DNA of 32,388 nt, taken from assembly GCA_003602605.1 (NCBI GenBank), contig QQRW01000045.1:1-32388 (forward strand). The letters are read 5' to 3'. The notes beneath the pieces are model-generated. The model was not told the origin of the DNA. It was given only the letters and a program-made list of their open reading frames with translations, and searched no databases. The position numbers and the translations under genes were made by a program. Source of the stretch: Candidatus Poseidoniales archaeon. GTDB lineage: Archaea; Thermoplasmatota; Poseidoniia; Poseidoniales; Poseidoniaceae. Below are positions 2,043 through 19,401 of this stretch, one piece after another (position 1 is the stretch's first letter; every line of letters begins with the position of its first letter).

Positions 2043-2930
2043 TCAGTCGTAGCGCTGAAGTTGCATCAATTCCTCGGTAGAGAGTGTCTCTCCTGACATC
2101 AACTTGCCCATCAGGTCTTGGACCTCAACCCGTGCATTTGGCCGTTGTCCGGCACCTGCACTTGCGCCACGCATTGCACGGAGCATGTCTTGAATCGAGT
2201 GCAAGCATCGCAAGGAAACGATGTAGGCACGGTGGTTCTTGTCAGCTTCTTTCTTCGAAGTTCGCAACTTGCGGTGAGCAGATTCTGCCTTTTCACGTTG
2301 GTTGTCGACTTCTTTATTCCATTGGAGCATCAAATCGTGTGCTTCTTGAGCAGCCTCAGCGGCTTGTTCGACAGCAGCGTGTGCTGTTTCTTGTGCTTCC
2401 ATAGCAATGCGGAGTGCTTCTCGGGATTCTTTGAGGTCGGTGTTGGAATCTTCTGAAATTTTCATCTTCTGAATCTTCGCGCTGATTTCCTTCATGCGCT
2501 TCATGACCTTTGTTTCGTTCTTGCCGGTGTGGCGTCCCATTTCGAATTCGTTTTCCAGACGAATCAATTCACGGCGGAGGGAGTGGATGGTATCTGGGCG
2601 GTCTCTTCGACCACGTCGCCCTTCTTCGCGTTGAGGAGCGGCATCTGGCCCCTTTGCTTGATTAAGAGCATCCTTTGCTTCGCGAACTTTCTTGTTTGCT
2701 TCAAGTCGGACGCTCTTCTTTTCTCGAACAATTTCGTTCATTTGCTCACGGATTTCACGTTGTTCTCGAACTTGAACAATAAGTTCCCGAACTTCGCCGT
2801 TCATCTCGTTTCGTGTTGCGGTGAATTTCTTGGAGTTTTCATTACACTCGTCTCGAAGAGTACGGTATTTTGTAGCCTTTTCATCGACCATCTTTCGTCG
2901 TTCTTCGAGTTGAGGTTTTAGTTCATCCAT
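2043..2930 (-). CDS. COG1340-like coiled-coil protein, paralogue A
   Basis: A 295-residue, highly charged, almost entirely helical protein with long heptad-like stretches and no signal peptide or membrane segment. It has the COG1340 layout: an N-terminal helix, a hinge rich in Arg/Gly/Pro (about residues 95-112), and a central block (LENEFEMG, then KVMKRMKEI) that recurs in the coiled-coil proteins at 6091 and 11822. The tail is a canonical GETLSTEELMQLQ motif (residues 280-292). The function of COG1340 proteins is not established; a structural or RNP-associated role is a guess. The ATG at 2930 follows a GGTGAG ribosome-binding site. The gene is 125 nt downstream of the Roadblock-like gene. 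Confidence 0.85.
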   Translation of the reverse strand: MDELKPQLEERRKMVDEKATKYRTLRDECNENSKKFTATRNEMNGEVRELIVQVREQREIREQMNEIVREKKSVRLEANKKVREAKDALNQAKGPDAAPQREEGRRGRRDRPDTIHSLRRELIRLENEFEMGRHTGKNETKVMKRMKEISAKIQKMKISEDSNTDLKESREALRIAMEAQETAHAAVEQAAEAAQEAHDLMLQWNKEVDNQREKAESAHRKLRTSKKEADKNHRAYIVSLRCLHSIQDMLRAMRGASAGAGQRPNARVEVQDLMGKLMSGETLSTEELMQLQRYD

Positions 2931-3439: not shown

Positions 3440-3446
3440 TTATATC
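3440..3446 (-). promoter_or_regulatory. TATA-like element of the Roadblock-like gene, overlapping a stop codon
   Basis: The minus-strand heptamer GATATAA is centred about 25 nt upstream of the ATG at 3418, the spacing expected for a leaderless archaeal transcript. It overlaps the TAA stop of the upstream acetyltransferase gene. Identified from sequence and spacing only. Confidence 0.45.
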
Positions 3447-3916
3447 GGCCCCTTCATCAGATATCCGAGACCGGATGCATAATAGTTTGAAAGATGACGA
3501 ATCACCTCGAGGTTTCTTGATGTATAGAATTTCTGAGCGCGAATGTTTTCCGCTTTTACTTCGAGTTGAATGGATTTCTTTCCTTGGGCAATTGATGCCT
3601 CGACCAAGTGTTCCCATGCCTTTGCACCCCATCCAGCTGATTGGTACTCGGAATCAATGACGAAGGCTGCGATTCGAACTCCATCAATTTCGTGTGGTAA
3701 GGCCCACATGAGTCCAAGTAATGCATCTGGATGAGGGTACTTACTGTTATCGAGCAGGAGCATGTTGCCAGCCCACTGAGGAATTGGTAGGTTCGATATC
3801 GAATCCAATGTGTACTGTTCTCCGGTCTCTTTTAGAAATAAGGAACGAACTTTTTCTTTCCATTCATCCGACAGCGACTTTGGTTCAAAACCGTACACCC
3901 ACTGGATGTTATCCAT
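3440..3916 (-). CDS. GNAT-family N-acetyltransferase
   Basis: Predicted acetyl-CoA-dependent acetyltransferase of about 158 residues. Motif A is visible as the strand RIAAFVID followed by QSAGWGAKAWEHLV, which matches the Q/RxxGxG/A pyrophosphate-binding turn. Motif B is LEVKAENIRAQKFYTSRN, the usual N-x-x-A-x-x-[FL]Y element. The acceptor is unknown; RimI-like protein acetylation is possible but unproven. It begins 9 nt after the stop of the terminal nucleotidyltransferase gene and so probably shares its mRNA. ATG at 3916 was chosen; a TTG two codons upstream (3922) is the alternative. Its position in the tailing-enzyme operon makes an RNA- or RNP-related substrate conceivable. Confidence 0.85.
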   Translation of the reverse strand: MDNIQWVYGFEPKSLSDEWKEKVRSLFLKETGEQYTLDSISNLPIPQWAGNMLLLDNSKYPHPDALLGLMWALPHEIDGVRIAAFVIDSEYQSAGWGAKAWEHLVEASIAQGKKSIQLEVKAENIRAQKFYTSRNLEVIRHLSNYYASGLGYLMKGPI

Positions 3917-3925
3917 CGGCAAACC

Positions 3926-6094
3926 TCATTCTTTGCGACCCTTTTTCGATTGAGAGCGCTCGCCACGTCGTACGGTCAAGTTACGATTTTGCTTCTTCTT
4001 CCGTTCTGCCCTGCGGGTTGATTTTGGTGTTGGTTTCGATGTACCTACCGATGCAAGCCCGCCGCTGTTGAGCAACACGTCAAGGTCAGAAAGAGAAAGA
4101 GCCCCGCCGGTTGCAGCACGCTGTTGAACATCTTCAGGCTTCGGTCCTTTATTGCGAGGTTTCCAATCCGCTTGACCGGATTTTTTCTTGCGTGCTCGGT
4201 CTTTGTTGCCAGATTTTCGGTTTGAAGTTCCCTTGGCTGAAATACGAGCCCATGCGTCCAACCGTCCCTTCTCACGTCGTAATTGTCGCATCTCTCTTCG
4301 ACGCTCTTGAATCACTTTGTTGAGTGAGTGGGCGTTCTGATCAAATTGTCTAGCTTCACTGAATTCAGTGGTGATGTTAGCGAGTATTGGCTCAGAATTA
4401 ATCAATTCTGCACGAACTTCGGATTGCTTGTTCTCAGTTATTTTCAAGTCTTTGACCGCTTTTTTCTGTTCACGGACCAGTGAGATAAACTCCTTGTGAG
4501 CAGCATCGGCTTGGAGGGCAACTTCATGCATAGCTTGCAATTCAAAGAACCATGCAAACTGGTCCTCTTCACGCTGGAGTGACGGCACTTGGAAGAAATC
4601 CACATCATCGGTAAGGTTGTTGTAGACTTCAACAAGAAGTTCTCGTATTCTGTAGAGAGGGATTCCTATTTTTTGATTGAGTTGGTCACGCTTTTCCTGC
4701 AATGCATTCATCCGTTCACTGCGGGGGCGAAGACTGCGTACAATCTTGCGATGTTCGTTGCGTAAGTCGCTGGTTTCTTCGAAAAGCCCCCGAAGGGCTT
4801 GTGAGATTTTGATGTTGTTTTGTCGTTCCTGTTGAAGCATTTCGATGCGTCCATCAAGATCTGTGAGCTGTTCGTTATTCGCCTTAACTTTCAATTCAAA
4901 GTCCGCCTTCGAAAGTGGGCGCAAGTCCTCAAAGAGATCTTTCTCTTCGATTGTTGGGAAACGTTCGGGGTTCTTGAGTTCGCACAAATCCTTCCAGGGT
5001 TTCCCTTCGTTAAGTGCCAGCCAGAATCGGAAAAGTTCCTCTTGAATGTCAAGTGCCCCCTCAGGGCGCAGGACGCGGCTCAAGTCATGTTCATGATTGA
5101 ATGGGTCTTCAACCGGGAACGAGTGCAACCCAAGCCGTGTCTTTCCTCCGGTTACAACGGCGGTTGAAGCATGGGGTTTGCCGTACTTCCATTTCTTTTC
5201 TTTGCGACCGATGGGTTGTCCACTTCGAATCGAGATGACATGTTCTTCCCAAGGACGCTCAAGAACCAATTGCTTGATGAAATGGGCAAAGATTTCTCCA
5301 ATCGATTGAGTGTTCTTTTCCTTGAGCAACTGTTCGGGGTTGTCCGACATTGTAAGGTCGTACTCTATTCCGTCGACTTTGAGGTGCGTGCGCTCTTTGC
5401 CTGACTGAATGTTTGGCGCGACCGGTGGAGTCGTGGTCTGAAGTGCTTGAAGCATAATCAGGCTCCAAGCATACGATGAGAATGTTCCTCGAGCAGCGTC
5501 ACCTACATCGCGTTGCGATGCCCAATATTTGACGGCCAGAATGCTGTTTTGAATGCGCTCATCCATCTCTGCATAGCGCTTGAGCAGTGTGGTGTTGTGC
5601 AACGCCAACGTGTTGTTGATGGATATGTCCACTGGGATTTTCGTACGTTCATCGGTGAATTTGATGATTGGTACTTTTGCAGAAGAAATCACTTGGATAT
5701 CTTCCATGTCTTGATTTCTCAGCGTAGTTGAAATCGAGCGAAGAATTTTCTTTGGCTTTTGGTCATTAAACAAGAGGCAGAGATCCATATCACCGCTTGA
5801 GAGGGAGAGGCCTGAAGCAGATGATCCAAACTGTCGCAACGAACTGCCCTTGAATCGACGTTCGACGGTTCTCTTCAAGTGTTCAAACAACCCTTTTCGC
5901 TTTTTGAGCATCACGGAAGATGGTCGTTGTTCAAAAAGTGTCTTTTCAATGTCCTTCGACAGTTGATCGATAGCAGATGCTTCCAAGTCCTCACCGGTTG
6001 GCAACTCAAGTTTGTCGCAGAGGTACTGATGAACAAGTGGCCACCGATGTTGCTGAGCGTTGTCAAAACCCGTGATTGGGCATTCGTCGCTCAT
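3926..6094 (-). CDS. Cid1/TUTase-like terminal nucleotidyltransferase fused to a COG1340-like coiled coil
   Basis: A 722-residue protein. Residues about 60-220 are a DNA-polymerase-beta-like nucleotidyltransferase core of the eukaryotic Cid1/TRF4/TUT group. QFGSSASGLSLSSGDMDL has catalytic Asp102 and Asp104; IPVDISINNTLALHNT has the third, Asp156; then come KYWASQRDV and GTFSSYAWSL. Residues about 225-365 fit the PAP-associated domain: PPVAPNI, SIGEIFAHFIK, then PVEDPFNHEHDLSRVL, with His336 where Cid1 has its uracil-reading His. Known relatives add U or A tails to RNA 3' ends. Residues about 400-650 are coiled coil; GGALSLSDLDVLLNSGG (about 663-679) is followed by a strongly basic tail, suited to RNA or RNP contact. 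Its start overlaps the upstream coiled-coil gene by ATGA. It does not look like an archaeal CCA-adding enzyme. Family call is firm; UTP preference is inferred. Confidence 0.88.
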   Translation of the reverse strand: MSDECPITGFDNAQQHRWPLVHQYLCDKLELPTGEDLEASAIDQLSKDIEKTLFEQRPSSVMLKKRKGLFEHLKRTVERRFKGSSLRQFGSSASGLSLSSGDMDLCLLFNDQKPKKILRSISTTLRNQDMEDIQVISSAKVPIIKFTDERTKIPVDISINNTLALHNTTLLKRYAEMDERIQNSILAVKYWASQRDVGDAARGTFSSYAWSLIMLQALQTTTPPVAPNIQSGKERTHLKVDGIEYDLTMSDNPEQLLKEKNTQSIGEIFAHFIKQLVLERPWEEHVISIRSGQPIGRKEKKWKYGKPHASTAVVTGGKTRLGLHSFPVEDPFNHEHDLSRVLRPEGALDIQEELFRFWLALNEGKPWKDLCELKNPERFPTIEEKDLFEDLRPLSKADFELKVKANNEQLTDLDGRIEMLQQERQNNIKISQALRGLFEETSDLRNEHRKIVRSLRPRSERMNALQEKRDQLNQKIGIPLYRIRELLVEVYNNLTDDVDFFQVPSLQREEDQFAWFFELQAMHEVALQADAAHKEFISLVREQKKAVKDLKITENKQSEVRAELINSEPILANITTEFSEARQFDQNAHSLNKVIQERRREMRQLRREKGRLDAWARISAKGTSNRKSGNKDRARKKKSGQADWKPRNKGPKPEDVQQRAATGGALSLSDLDVLLNSGGLASVGTSKPTPKSTRRAERKKKQNRNLTVRRGERSQSKKGRKE

Positions 6095-6939
6095 TCTTCT
6101 TCACTTCCTTTGGTTTGCTTCTTTTTCGAGCGACGAGTGTAGGTCGGTTTTGATTCCTTCTTCATGTTGTTCGCCCGTCGCCGTGCGTGGCTTGACGGTT
6201 CGCCTTTTTTGACGCGCTGGGCGTTTTCGAGGAGTGAGTCAAATCCCTTGTCAATGTGGTTTTGCCAGTGTTCAATGCCTTTCTGGCTGCTATCAAGGGC
6301 GAGAGCAAGACGTTTTGTTCGTGCATCTGCTCGTCGTCGATGAGCCTCCTGTTCAAGGTAAGTGTTGTGAAAATATTCGTTTTCAGATGCGTGGTCGAGC
6401 AGTGCATTGTGTGCCTTTTCGGACAACGAAAGTTGCTTACGTGCCTCTTGGTACAACTTCTTCATCGTCGCTTGCTCTTCCAGATTGTCTTTTCTTTTCG
6501 ACACCCATTCCTCATGCTGTTGAAGCAATGTCTTCATCTCTTTGATGTATTTTTGCTCGGTTTTGTGGTTGCCGGCATTGGTTTCCAATTCGTGTTCAAT
6601 CTTTTTGAGCTTGTCCTCAAGTTTGGATTGAGCCCATTCAGGGTTTGCTTGCTTGACGCCTCCTGCGTTGGCGATTGTTTCACGAACTTTGCCAGCCTCT
6701 TTGAAAAGGTCTTGAGCTTTTTTTCGAGCAGCATTTCTTTCCTTTTTGAGATTTGCAACTTTGGCGTTCACTGCATCCCTTTGTTCTTTGGCACTTCGAG
6801 CCAAAGGTTCTGCCGCACGTAGTTCATCTTGGCGTGCATCGAGTTGTTCGGGTATGGTCTCTGCAAGGCGTTCGCGCCGGTGCAAAATGGACTTTGCCAG
6901 TAAGGCAGGAGTCATTTCCAGCAACTCGTCAGGACCCAT
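6091..6939 (-). CDS. COG1340-like coiled-coil protein, paralogue B (partner of the tailing enzyme)
   Basis: About 282 residues, nearly all charged helix. A short N-terminal segment (GPDELLEMTPALLAKSI) precedes long heptad-rich helices, and the tail is basic (RRRANNMKKESK, then RRSKKKQTKG). The central HELETNAGNHKTEQKYIKEMK block parallels the coiled-coil proteins at 2043 and 11822. The stop overlaps the start of the terminal nucleotidyltransferase gene by 4 nt (ATGA), implying translational coupling and probably a physical complex. ATG at 6939 was chosen because a minus-strand TTTATTG (6971-6965) would place transcription initiation almost on this codon, giving a leaderless mRNA. TTG at 6960 would add seven residues. 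No catalytic motif is visible. Confidence 0.82.
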   Translation of the reverse strand: MGPDELLEMTPALLAKSILHRRERLAETIPEQLDARQDELRAAEPLARSAKEQRDAVNAKVANLKKERNAARKKAQDLFKEAGKVRETIANAGGVKQANPEWAQSKLEDKLKKIEHELETNAGNHKTEQKYIKEMKTLLQQHEEWVSKRKDNLEEQATMKKLYQEARKQLSLSEKAHNALLDHASENEYFHNTYLEQEAHRRRADARTKRLALALDSSQKGIEHWQNHIDKGFDSLLENAQRVKKGEPSSHARRRANNMKKESKPTYTRRSKKKQTKGSEEE

Positions 6940-6960
6940 ACAGTGTGCGCCAGTCTCCAA

Positions 6961-11821: not shown

Positions 11822-12829
11822 ATGCGCGGAAGACCAGATGATGCGACTCCAAGTCCTGATGCTGAATTGCGAGAAGAATTACAGGGCATGGAAGCACGTG
11901 TTCGAAAAATGCGAAACACTCGTAATTCATTCAGCGAACAAGCTCGTACTGTTGCGGACAAGCGCAATGCAGTTCAGGGACAATACAAGGAACATCGAGA
12001 GAAGGTCGACCTCGTGCTTACTGAGATCAAAGCAATCCGTGCAGAAATCAAGATGTTCAAGGAGAAGCGTAATGCTCTACAGCAACAGCTTCGTGAAGTC
12101 ATCAATCAGGTGAAGGGTCGCCGTGATGAAAAGGGTGAAAAGAAGTCAGCAACCGCTGAATATGCGAAGTTGCAACAAGAAGTCCAATCGCTCGAAAAGA
12201 CCTTCGAGACCTCCTCTGTAGGTCAGAAGAAGGAAAAGGAAATGATTAAGAAAATCAAGGAAATGAAAATCCGAATCAAGGAATTAGCTCCAGAAGTTAC
12301 TCAGTTTGAAATAATTAATGTTGACCTCAGCGACATGGATTCAGCAATCAAGTTGCTTCGTTCTGAAGCTGACGCAGCACACCAAGATATGCTTGAGGCA
12401 GTTGGCCGTGCTGATGCAATTTCCAAGGAAGTTGATGAAGCATTCACCCACCGTGACTTCCTCAAAGCGGAAGGCGATCGCTTCCACAACGAATTTTTGG
12501 AATTGCGTCAAAAGTCTGACGACATGCACAACAAGATTACAGAGTTGATGGTCGATGTCAATAAAGTTCGAGACAAGTTGAACATGGCTCGTGATGAGCG
12601 AAAGTCATGGATGACCGACCACAATGCATCCGTCAAGGCCGAGATGAAAACCGGTGCAGAATCTGAAGAAGTCGCAGACGAACTTGTTTCACAACTTCTC
12701 AATTCAGGCGGAATTACCTTCGGTGGAATTGGTCAAGGTGATACTGGAAACTCCAGTAAGCGAAAGTCCAAGTCCGGTAAGAAGAAGTCAATGCGCAAGA
12801 TCGACATGCGTGCATCACGCCGGCGCTGA
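11822..12829 (+). CDS. COG1340-like coiled-coil protein, paralogue C
   Basis: A 335-residue charged coiled-coil protein. It is the third COG1340-like protein in the window and shares the central block (EKTFETSSVG, then KEKEMIKKIKEMKIRIKEL) with the genes at 2043 and 6091. Its C-terminal ELVSQLLNSGGITFGG (residues about 287-302) nearly matches the LLNSGGL tail of the terminal nucleotidyltransferase at 3926. A basic Ser/Lys/Arg end follows (KRKSKSGKKK). No enzymatic motif, signal peptide or membrane helix is present. It precedes a sugar nucleotidyltransferase by 9 nt and may be cotranscribed, but the shared tail ties it more to the tailing-enzyme locus. Function unknown; a scaffold for a ribonucleoprotein or ribosome-linked complex is speculation. 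Confidence 0.83.
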   Translation: MRGRPDDATPSPDAELREELQGMEARVRKMRNTRNSFSEQARTVADKRNAVQGQYKEHREKVDLVLTEIKAIRAEIKMFKEKRNALQQQLREVINQVKGRRDEKGEKKSATAEYAKLQQEVQSLEKTFETSSVGQKKEKEMIKKIKEMKIRIKELAPEVTQFEIINVDLSDMDSAIKLLRSEADAAHQDMLEAVGRADAISKEVDEAFTHRDFLKAEGDRFHNEFLELRQKSDDMHNKITELMVDVNKVRDKLNMARDERKSWMTDHNASVKAEMKTGAESEEVADELVSQLLNSGGITFGGIGQGDTGNSSKRKSKSGKKKSMRKIDMRASRRR

Positions 12830-18417: not shown

Positions 18418-19401
18418 ATGGCAAAAAAGATTAGTGTAAAGGCACGTGCAGCAGCACGTAAGCAACGTGACAAGTGGAAGAACAAGATTTGGTACACCAT
18501 TCGTGCCCCACGAACGCCATGGGATTTTAAGAAAATAGGAGAGACTCTCGGGGAGTCCGATGAACGCATTATCGGCCGTGTGTACGAAATGACACAACAA
18601 GAATTCAATGGCGACTTTACTAAGATGCACGTAATCCTCCGATTCCGTGTTCACGAATGTGTTGGGCAAGACGCTCTAACCACATTCATCGGTCACCATC
18701 ACCAAACCGACCACATCCGTCGACAGATTCGTCGTTACCGGGGTAAAGTCGATGACGTCGTCGATGTCGTTTCGACCGACGGTTACTTGATTCGACTCAA
18801 GCCACTAATTATTACTCAAAAGCGAGTTCAGACTTCCATCAAGCAGGCTATGCGTGCTAAGGCTCGAGACATGATTATCGCTTTTGCTTCCAAGGCCACC
18901 TACTCCAAGATTCAAACTCAGATTCTTGACGGAACCCTTGAAGAAGAAATCCGAAAGGCAGTCAAGCCAATCTACCCAGTGAAGTCTGTCGCTATCCGTA
19001 AGAGCCAACTTCTCCAAGCTGGTGTCGTTGCTGACAAAGGAAAGACACTCGATGAGATTCACGCTGAAGAAGCTCGCAGTGATGCTGAACTTAAGGCAAA
19101 GAAGGCTGCAGCTCTTGCTGCAGCAATGGAAGATGAAGAGGAAGAAGAATCCACTCCGTCGATTATTGATGCTGCTGAAGCTATGGAACCTGCATCTGAT
19201 AAGGCTCCTGCTGCCGAAGAGGCACCTGCCGAAGAAGCACCTGCCGAAGAAGCACCTGCTGAAGAGGCACCTGCTGAAGAGGCTGCACCAAGTGCAGACT
19301 ACGATTCGATGAAGGTCGCAGAACTCAAGGAACTTCTCAAGGCAGCAGGAAAGCCAGTATCTGGCAAGAAAGCAGACTTGATCGCTCGCCTCAACGAGTG
19401 A
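18418..19401 (+). CDS. rps3ae: Ribosomal protein eS1 (S3Ae) with APAEE-repeat linker and C-terminal SAP domain
   Basis: Small-subunit ribosomal protein. Residues 1 to about 215 match archaeal eS1: a basic N-terminus (KARAAARKQRDKWKNK), WYTIRAPRTPW, HVILRFRVHECVGQD and YPVKSVAIRKSQL. The usual protein ends near 200-220 residues; this one has 327. The extra part is an acidic, Ala-rich helix, then four APAEE units (residues 269-288) in near-identical 15-nt repeats, then a SAP motif (about 294-327: KVAELKELLKAAGKPVSGKKADLIARL). SAP domains bind DNA and sometimes RNA. The start ATG has a strong GAGATGAT Shine-Dalgarno site. A methylthioadenosine phosphorylase gene follows by 94 nt. Confidence 0.93.
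   Translation: MAKKISVKARAAARKQRDKWKNKIWYTIRAPRTPWDFKKIGETLGESDERIIGRVYEMTQQEFNGDFTKMHVILRFRVHECVGQDALTTFIGHHHQTDHIRRQIRRYRGKVDDVVDVVSTDGYLIRLKPLIITQKRVQTSIKQAMRAKARDMIIAFASKATYSKIQTQILDGTLEEEIRKAVKPIYPVKSVAIRKSQLLQAGVVADKGKTLDEIHAEEARSDAELKAKKAAALAAAMEDEEEEESTPSIIDAAEAMEPASDKAPAAEEAPAEEAPAEEAPAEEAPAEEAAPSADYDSMKVAELKELLKAAGKPVSGKKADLIARLNE
19222..19281 (+). repeat. Four tandem 15-nt repeats encoding APAEE in eS1
   Basis: Four in-frame units, two reading GCACCTGCCGAAGAA and two GCACCTGCTGAAGAG, preceded by one degenerate copy (19204-19221, APAAEE). Each unit encodes Ala-Pro-Ala-Glu-Glu in the eS1 linker. The near identity suggests expansion by slippage or unequal recombination; copy number may vary between strains. 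Confidence 0.9.

Follow-up and report, generated by a model that had tools for sequence, protein, structure and literature searches.

A Cid1-type terminal nucleotidyltransferase domain, most likely of eukaryotic origin, fused to an archaeal coiled-coil protein in Marine Group IIa

The uridylation of RNA 3' ends is regarded as a eukaryotic process, and the tailing of archaeal RNA is attributed to the exosome. The described enzymes of the Cid1/TUTase type include TUT4 and TUT7 of animals, URT1 of plants, Cid1 of fission yeast and CutA of filamentous fungi. In Cid1, H336 selects UTP, and its replacement by Ala or Asn yields a poly(A) polymerase (PMC4357723). In CutA, the change of Arg557 to Ala shifts incorporation towards A and its change to His shifts it towards U; that Arg557 is the equivalent of position 336 was deduced from the remark on the histidine at this site in the same paper (PMC7498324). 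Tailing of 3' ends in archaea is known from the exosome (PMC4227792); in contrast to a TUTase, the exosome acts by reverse phosphorolysis, makes A-rich tails and has an unrelated fold. We found no paper on archaeal TUTases among the openly licensed literature. The enzyme class presented in this work is known, while its archaeal occurrence, its fusion at a fixed locus to an archaeal coiled coil and the existence of a dead derivative appear to be new within the literature searched.

The window, that is the whole stretch of 32,388 nucleotides analysed here, carries on its minus strand an open reading frame of 722 amino acids (3926..6094) with an ATG start and without internal stop. A preliminary description made from the sequence had claimed a Cid1/TUTase and quoted the motifs FGSSASGLSLSSGDMDL (residues 89-105), D156 and VEDPFNHEHDLSR (residues 328-340), all of which are present. 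Pfam, PDB matches and the predicted structure agree with this identity and reveal a complete core; it is limited to residues 1-380 (4955..6094), whereas residues 384-722 form a coiled coil and a basic tail, a family of its own that the description did not reach. In Pfam, the palm domain matched MTPAP-like_central (residues 45-175, 5570..5962, 3e-33) and NTP_transf_2 (2.4e-8), and the PAP-associated domain with its nucleotide recognition motif (residues 281-336, 5087..5254) matched PAP_assoc barely above the cut-off (8.7e-5, 23.2 bits vs 22.6). Comparison with PDB chains by phmmer gave TUT4 (4.8e-48), TUT7 (5.3e-46), URT1 (2.4e-39), CutA (4e-36), Cid1 (8e-32) and GLD2 (4e-31), with a far weaker match to Poly(A) RNA polymerase protein 2, the yeast Trf4 (4.6e-8). 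The view that this is not a CCA-adding enzyme also held, the top profile matches in Pfam and NCBIfam being of the Cid1 type; CCA-adding and kanamycin nucleotidyltransferase families gave no match in Pfam (E<=1) or NCBIfam (E<=0.1), and a CCA-adding or antibiotic nucleotidyltransferase identity was rejected. Structure prediction, which had been proposed as a check, was performed on residues 1-380 with AlphaFold2 from an alignment of 17 archaeal sequences (pLDDT 91.6, pTM 0.91). Foldseek ranked TUT7 (4.3e-24), Cid1 (4.7e-24), CutA and URT1 at the top, with TM values of roughly 0.75 (query) and, for most of them, 0.84-0.89 (target) at 27-29% identity, and the match to TUT7, Cid1 and URT1 spans the whole core including the PAP-associated domain. 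With a Pol-beta palm bearing GS...D.D and a third Asp, a PAP-associated central domain and a predicted Cid1/TUT7 fold, the assignment of residues 1-380 to the Cid1-type terminal nucleotidyltransferases is supported by sequence and by predicted shape.

TUT4 and TUT7 are the best matches in sequence and structure, and share the palm, the PAP-associated domain, the catalytic triad and the UTP-type histidine; they differ in that the archaeal protein, 27-28% identical, continues into an archaeal coiled coil and gave no match to a zinc knuckle or Lin28-binding module. URT1 gave the longest match to the profile of the 17 archaeal sequences (positions 26-364, 252 bits) and its EDPF...HDL.RV motif is nearly identical, but it is eukaryotic and carries other accessory parts. 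Cid1 resembles the archaeal module as a single-module TUTase, in its fold and in its H336 position; it stands alone, in contrast to the archaeal protein with its 340-residue coiled-coil extension. CutA shares the fold and, with seven archaeal members, an Arg at the base-reading position, whereas most archaeal members including the 722-aa protein have His.

The window comes from a Poseidoniales genome, and the distribution of the domain is narrow. It was detected in 105 of the 293 genomes of the class, all belonging to the family Poseidoniaceae (Marine Group IIa, here f1) and to 8 of 25 genera; among the same 293 genomes there was no match in the sister family f2 (Marine Group IIb). A survey of Marine Group II had been suggested at the outset, and the group was rightly named but too broadly drawn, since no domain was found in the other Poseidoniales family. 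A search of the rest of the phylum with the Pfam palm model returned weak, short matches only. In a scan of 84,980 species genomes, limited by its motifs, the 80 listed loci were all, by record title, from Poseidoniales or unclassified Euryarchaeota except one (L144, CALDQY010000113.1); this record bears the title Rhodobiaceae bacterium, yet its TUTase gene is of the Poseidoniaceae type, and the bin is probably mislabelled or chimeric. The 80 loci include one on the closed chromosome CM001443.1 and those of AG-404-K16 and AH-273-O19, whose names have the form used for single-cell genomes. Signs of carriage by viruses or plasmids were sought and not found: none of 16 motif matches in IMG/VR was confirmed as a relative, no relative was found in phages or plasmids, a viral scan seeded with URT1 found nothing, and viral structures resemble the predicted module weakly.

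Gene order was kept in all 18 loci examined, read as far as each contig extends and representing eight genera (g1-g5, g7, g8 and g11): PurP, CC1, a GNAT gene, the TUTase gene, CC2, a zinc-ribbon membrane protein, MntR, a membrane protein and CC3. The base composition of the TUTase gene resembles that of its neighbours. CC2, the upstream coiled-coil partner (6091..6960, minus strand), overlaps the TUTase gene by four bases (ATGA), and the downstream RimI-like GNAT acetyltransferase (3440..3922, minus strand; TIGR01575, 1.2e-11, under the curated cut-off of that model) lies 3 bases past the TUTase stop. Given this overlap and this short gap, the three genes probably form one operon.

Active-site residues were counted in 88 distinct relatives, excluding genus g11. 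D102 and D156 (codon 5627..5629) are invariant, and D104 is conserved in 87 of 88, the remaining one being X; the D102 and D104 codons lie within GDMD (5783..5791). N161, N167, K189, Y208, E329, D330 and P331 are also invariant. H336 (codon 5087..5089) aligns with the histidine of URT1 (IEDPFETSHDLGRVV) and with the UTP-selecting one of Cid1 (IEDPFEISHNVGRTV), so that the 722-aa protein has the residue by which the UTP-selective subgroup is recognized. Of 87 relatives, 78 have His, 7 Arg, 1 Ile and 1 Leu. In view of the Cid1 and CutA mutants, the 722-aa protein is predicted to prefer UTP, which may not be true of a minority of its relatives. An Arg at position 336, as in CutA, was seen in L078, L114, L116-L119 and L062; nucleotide preference may therefore differ between lineages, and by analogy these relatives may tail with C or A.

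Genus g11 retains the fused domain and has lost all three catalytic aspartates. In 5 of 5 sequences GGIE replaces GDMD, placing G and E at D102 and D104, and Arg replaces D156, and Pfam scarcely detects the TUTase domain. The predicted structure is still Cid1-like (pLDDT 87.8, Cid1 1.5e-17), active sequences having been in the alignment. The dN/dS ratio is about 0.09-0.12 for the g11 domain and about 0.03-0.04 for the active core of close relatives, indicating purifying selection on both, strong in the latter. TUT4 and TUT7 likewise have a second, inactive TUTase module, to which the dead g11 domain is parallel.

The C-terminal half consists of a coiled coil (residues 384-625, 4220..4945) and a basic tail (residues 626-722, 3929..4219; 29 K/R, 9 D/E) with a conserved LSLSDLDVLLNSGG motif. 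Coiled coil and tail make up the entire protein in Marine Group IIb and in some IIa genomes, where short homologues of 225-436 aa fill the same slot: in f2 (L166, L167, L168), g9 (L170), g6 (L165), g10 (L164) and a g2 subclade (L159-L163). These match only residues from about 384 on (384-717), with phmmer values of 6e-52 (g10), 2.5e-34 (best f2 member) and weaker ones in the others, and the TUTase core profile found nothing significant in their genomes. Since a coiled-coil-only protein occupies the same slot in IIb and in some IIa, the most likely course is that an archaeal gene already in place received the TUTase domain by fusion within Marine Group IIa. In a tree of nine syntenic markers, f2 falls outside and g9 branches next; g11 then groups with (g6, g10), at a support of only 65, next to a clade of g7, g4, g5, g8, g3, g1 and g2. 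Read most simply, the domain was gained once in IIa, after the divergence of g9, then inactivated in g11 and lost from g6/g10 and from part of g2. The TUTase domain is thus dispensable, being missing from the g2 subclade, g6, g9 and g10. Residues 384-722 have no Pfam match over the cut-off, DUF7121 included, and are tied to the DUF7121-like neighbours by profile-profile comparison only. CC3 (11822..12829, plus strand) is the nearest relative found (HHalign 97%, E 4e-10, score 78, vs 16 for a reversed profile and <=37 in 20 heptad-block shuffles). CC1 (2043..2930, minus strand; DUF7121 by Pfam, 1e-15) is a weaker match (HHalign E about 1e-6 to 1e-5), and CC2 is unsupported as a homologue (HHalign 5-6%). 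The C-terminal half is thus related to archaeal coiled-coil proteins of the DUF7121 kind, from which it differs in lacking a Pfam match of its own.

We consider it quite probable that the protein works as a terminal nucleotidyltransferase of the Cid1 family, with uridylation as its most likely activity, which would add nucleotides to RNA 3' ends without template in Marine Group IIa, and that its domain, most likely derived from a eukaryote, was joined to an archaeal coiled coil. GLD2 and CutA likewise match strongly, and seven members share with CutA the Arg at the base-reading position (PMC7498324), as would be expected if the enzyme were of the Cid1 family but not specific for U, making poly(A) or mixed C/U/A tails such as GLD-2 or CutA; the UTP-selecting histidine in 78 of 87 relatives and the EDPF...HDL.RV surroundings in common with URT1 make this rather unlikely. 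The module might also serve mainly as a non-catalytic RNA-binding scaffold, as it must in g11, with the essential function residing in the coiled coil. Although g11 keeps the predicted fold and purifying selection without its three aspartates, and several lineages retain the coiled coil only, outside g11 the active-site residues are invariant down to 36% identity, which would be needless for a scaffold, and we hold such a role to be very improbable.

The origin of the domain was judged by score ranking and distribution, with few eukaryotic sequences compared. Against URT1, the archaeal core scored 138 bits, next to 139 for GLD2, whereas Poly(A) RNA polymerase protein 2 (85), mtPAP (83) and TUT1 (72 bits) scored lower. 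This ranking and the narrow distribution favour a eukaryotic donor, from which Marine Group IIa would have received the domain; this is the likeliest origin on these comparisons. Alternatively, the domain could be ancestral in archaea, eukaryotes having inherited it from an archaeal forebear while most archaea lost it; beyond this phylum, archaea were covered by the motif-limited scan only, which leaves this reading some room. However, the URT1 ranking is that expected for a core inside the eukaryotic radiation and neither IIb nor the other sampled members of the phylum yielded the domain, so that we regard archaeal ancestry as improbable. The nearest solved relatives are all eukaryotic, and eukaryotic DNA contamination or misbinning was therefore considered. 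It is refuted by the in-frame fusion to an archaeal protein, by archaeal flanking genes at a locus that is the same in every case examined, and by the presence of the domain in 105 genomes of one family and in single-cell and closed genomes; the chance that it explains the gene is negligible.

In the mechanism that we propose, IIa archaea would, after their split from IIb, have gained a Cid1/TUTase domain, with a eukaryote as the most likely donor, and joined it in frame ahead of an archaeal DUF7121-like coiled-coil protein that they already had. The N-terminal module would perform two-metal nucleotidyl transfer by D102, D104 and D156 and read uracil by H336. Recruitment to RNA or ribosomes would probably be the task of the C-terminal half and of CC2, whose translation is coupled to that of the enzyme. 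RNA tailed in this way would pass to 3'-5' exonucleases, namely the exosome and, in some genera, RNase R. The genome that bears the TUTase gene gave three matches to the RNase PH family, of which two are neighbours, the arrangement expected of Rrp41/Rrp42; RNase PH subunits of the exosome, itself a 3' tailing activity, are thus encoded in the same genome, as is one RNB exonuclease nearest to bacterial RNase R. Among 24 relatives, the RNB gene was found in g1, g2, g3, g5 and g8 and was not found in g4, g6, g7, g9, g10, g11 and f2. A strict pairing of TUTase and RNase R was rejected, g4 and g7 having TUTase without RNase R and the g2 subclade RNase R without TUTase; the two distributions overlap and are not paired. 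An example of the RNase R-type exonuclease of these five Marine Group IIa genera is L173:826-3189. U tails are usually read by an Lsm protein. Lsm/SmAP (PF01423) gave no match in 25 Poseidoniales genomes including a closed chromosome, with three control archaea positive, and Lsm was discarded as the U-tail reader; Poseidoniales may lack SmAP or carry a strongly diverged form of it. This result and the failure to find RNase R in g4 and g7 count against the mechanism that we propose.

Marine Group IIa are among the most abundant archaea of the surface ocean, and the domain, as read from its sequence and model, would imply U tails on archaeal RNA 3' ends. If so, archaea would have a second tailing route beside the exosome, and the locus would show clearly how gene fusion has built an RNA enzyme of eukaryotic type into the RNA metabolism of archaea. 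More tentatively, we envisage a IIa uridylation pathway built from a captured eukaryotic TUTase and an archaeal coiled coil that may act on ribosomes or RNA, with g11 having turned the enzyme into a non-catalytic RNA-binding protein; as a whole this is possible but somewhat doubtful. The series found in nature at one locus (no domain, active, dead, lost) might help to probe what tailing does.

Four coiled-coil protein regions lie within 11 kb of the window (2043-2930, 3926-4945, 6091-6960 and 11822-12829), several of them interrelated by profile comparison. Elsewhere in the window, ribosomal protein S3Ae (18418-19401, plus strand) ends in a SAP domain (Pfam 1.1e-12), which is preceded by an acidic linker rich in Ala, Glu and Pro.
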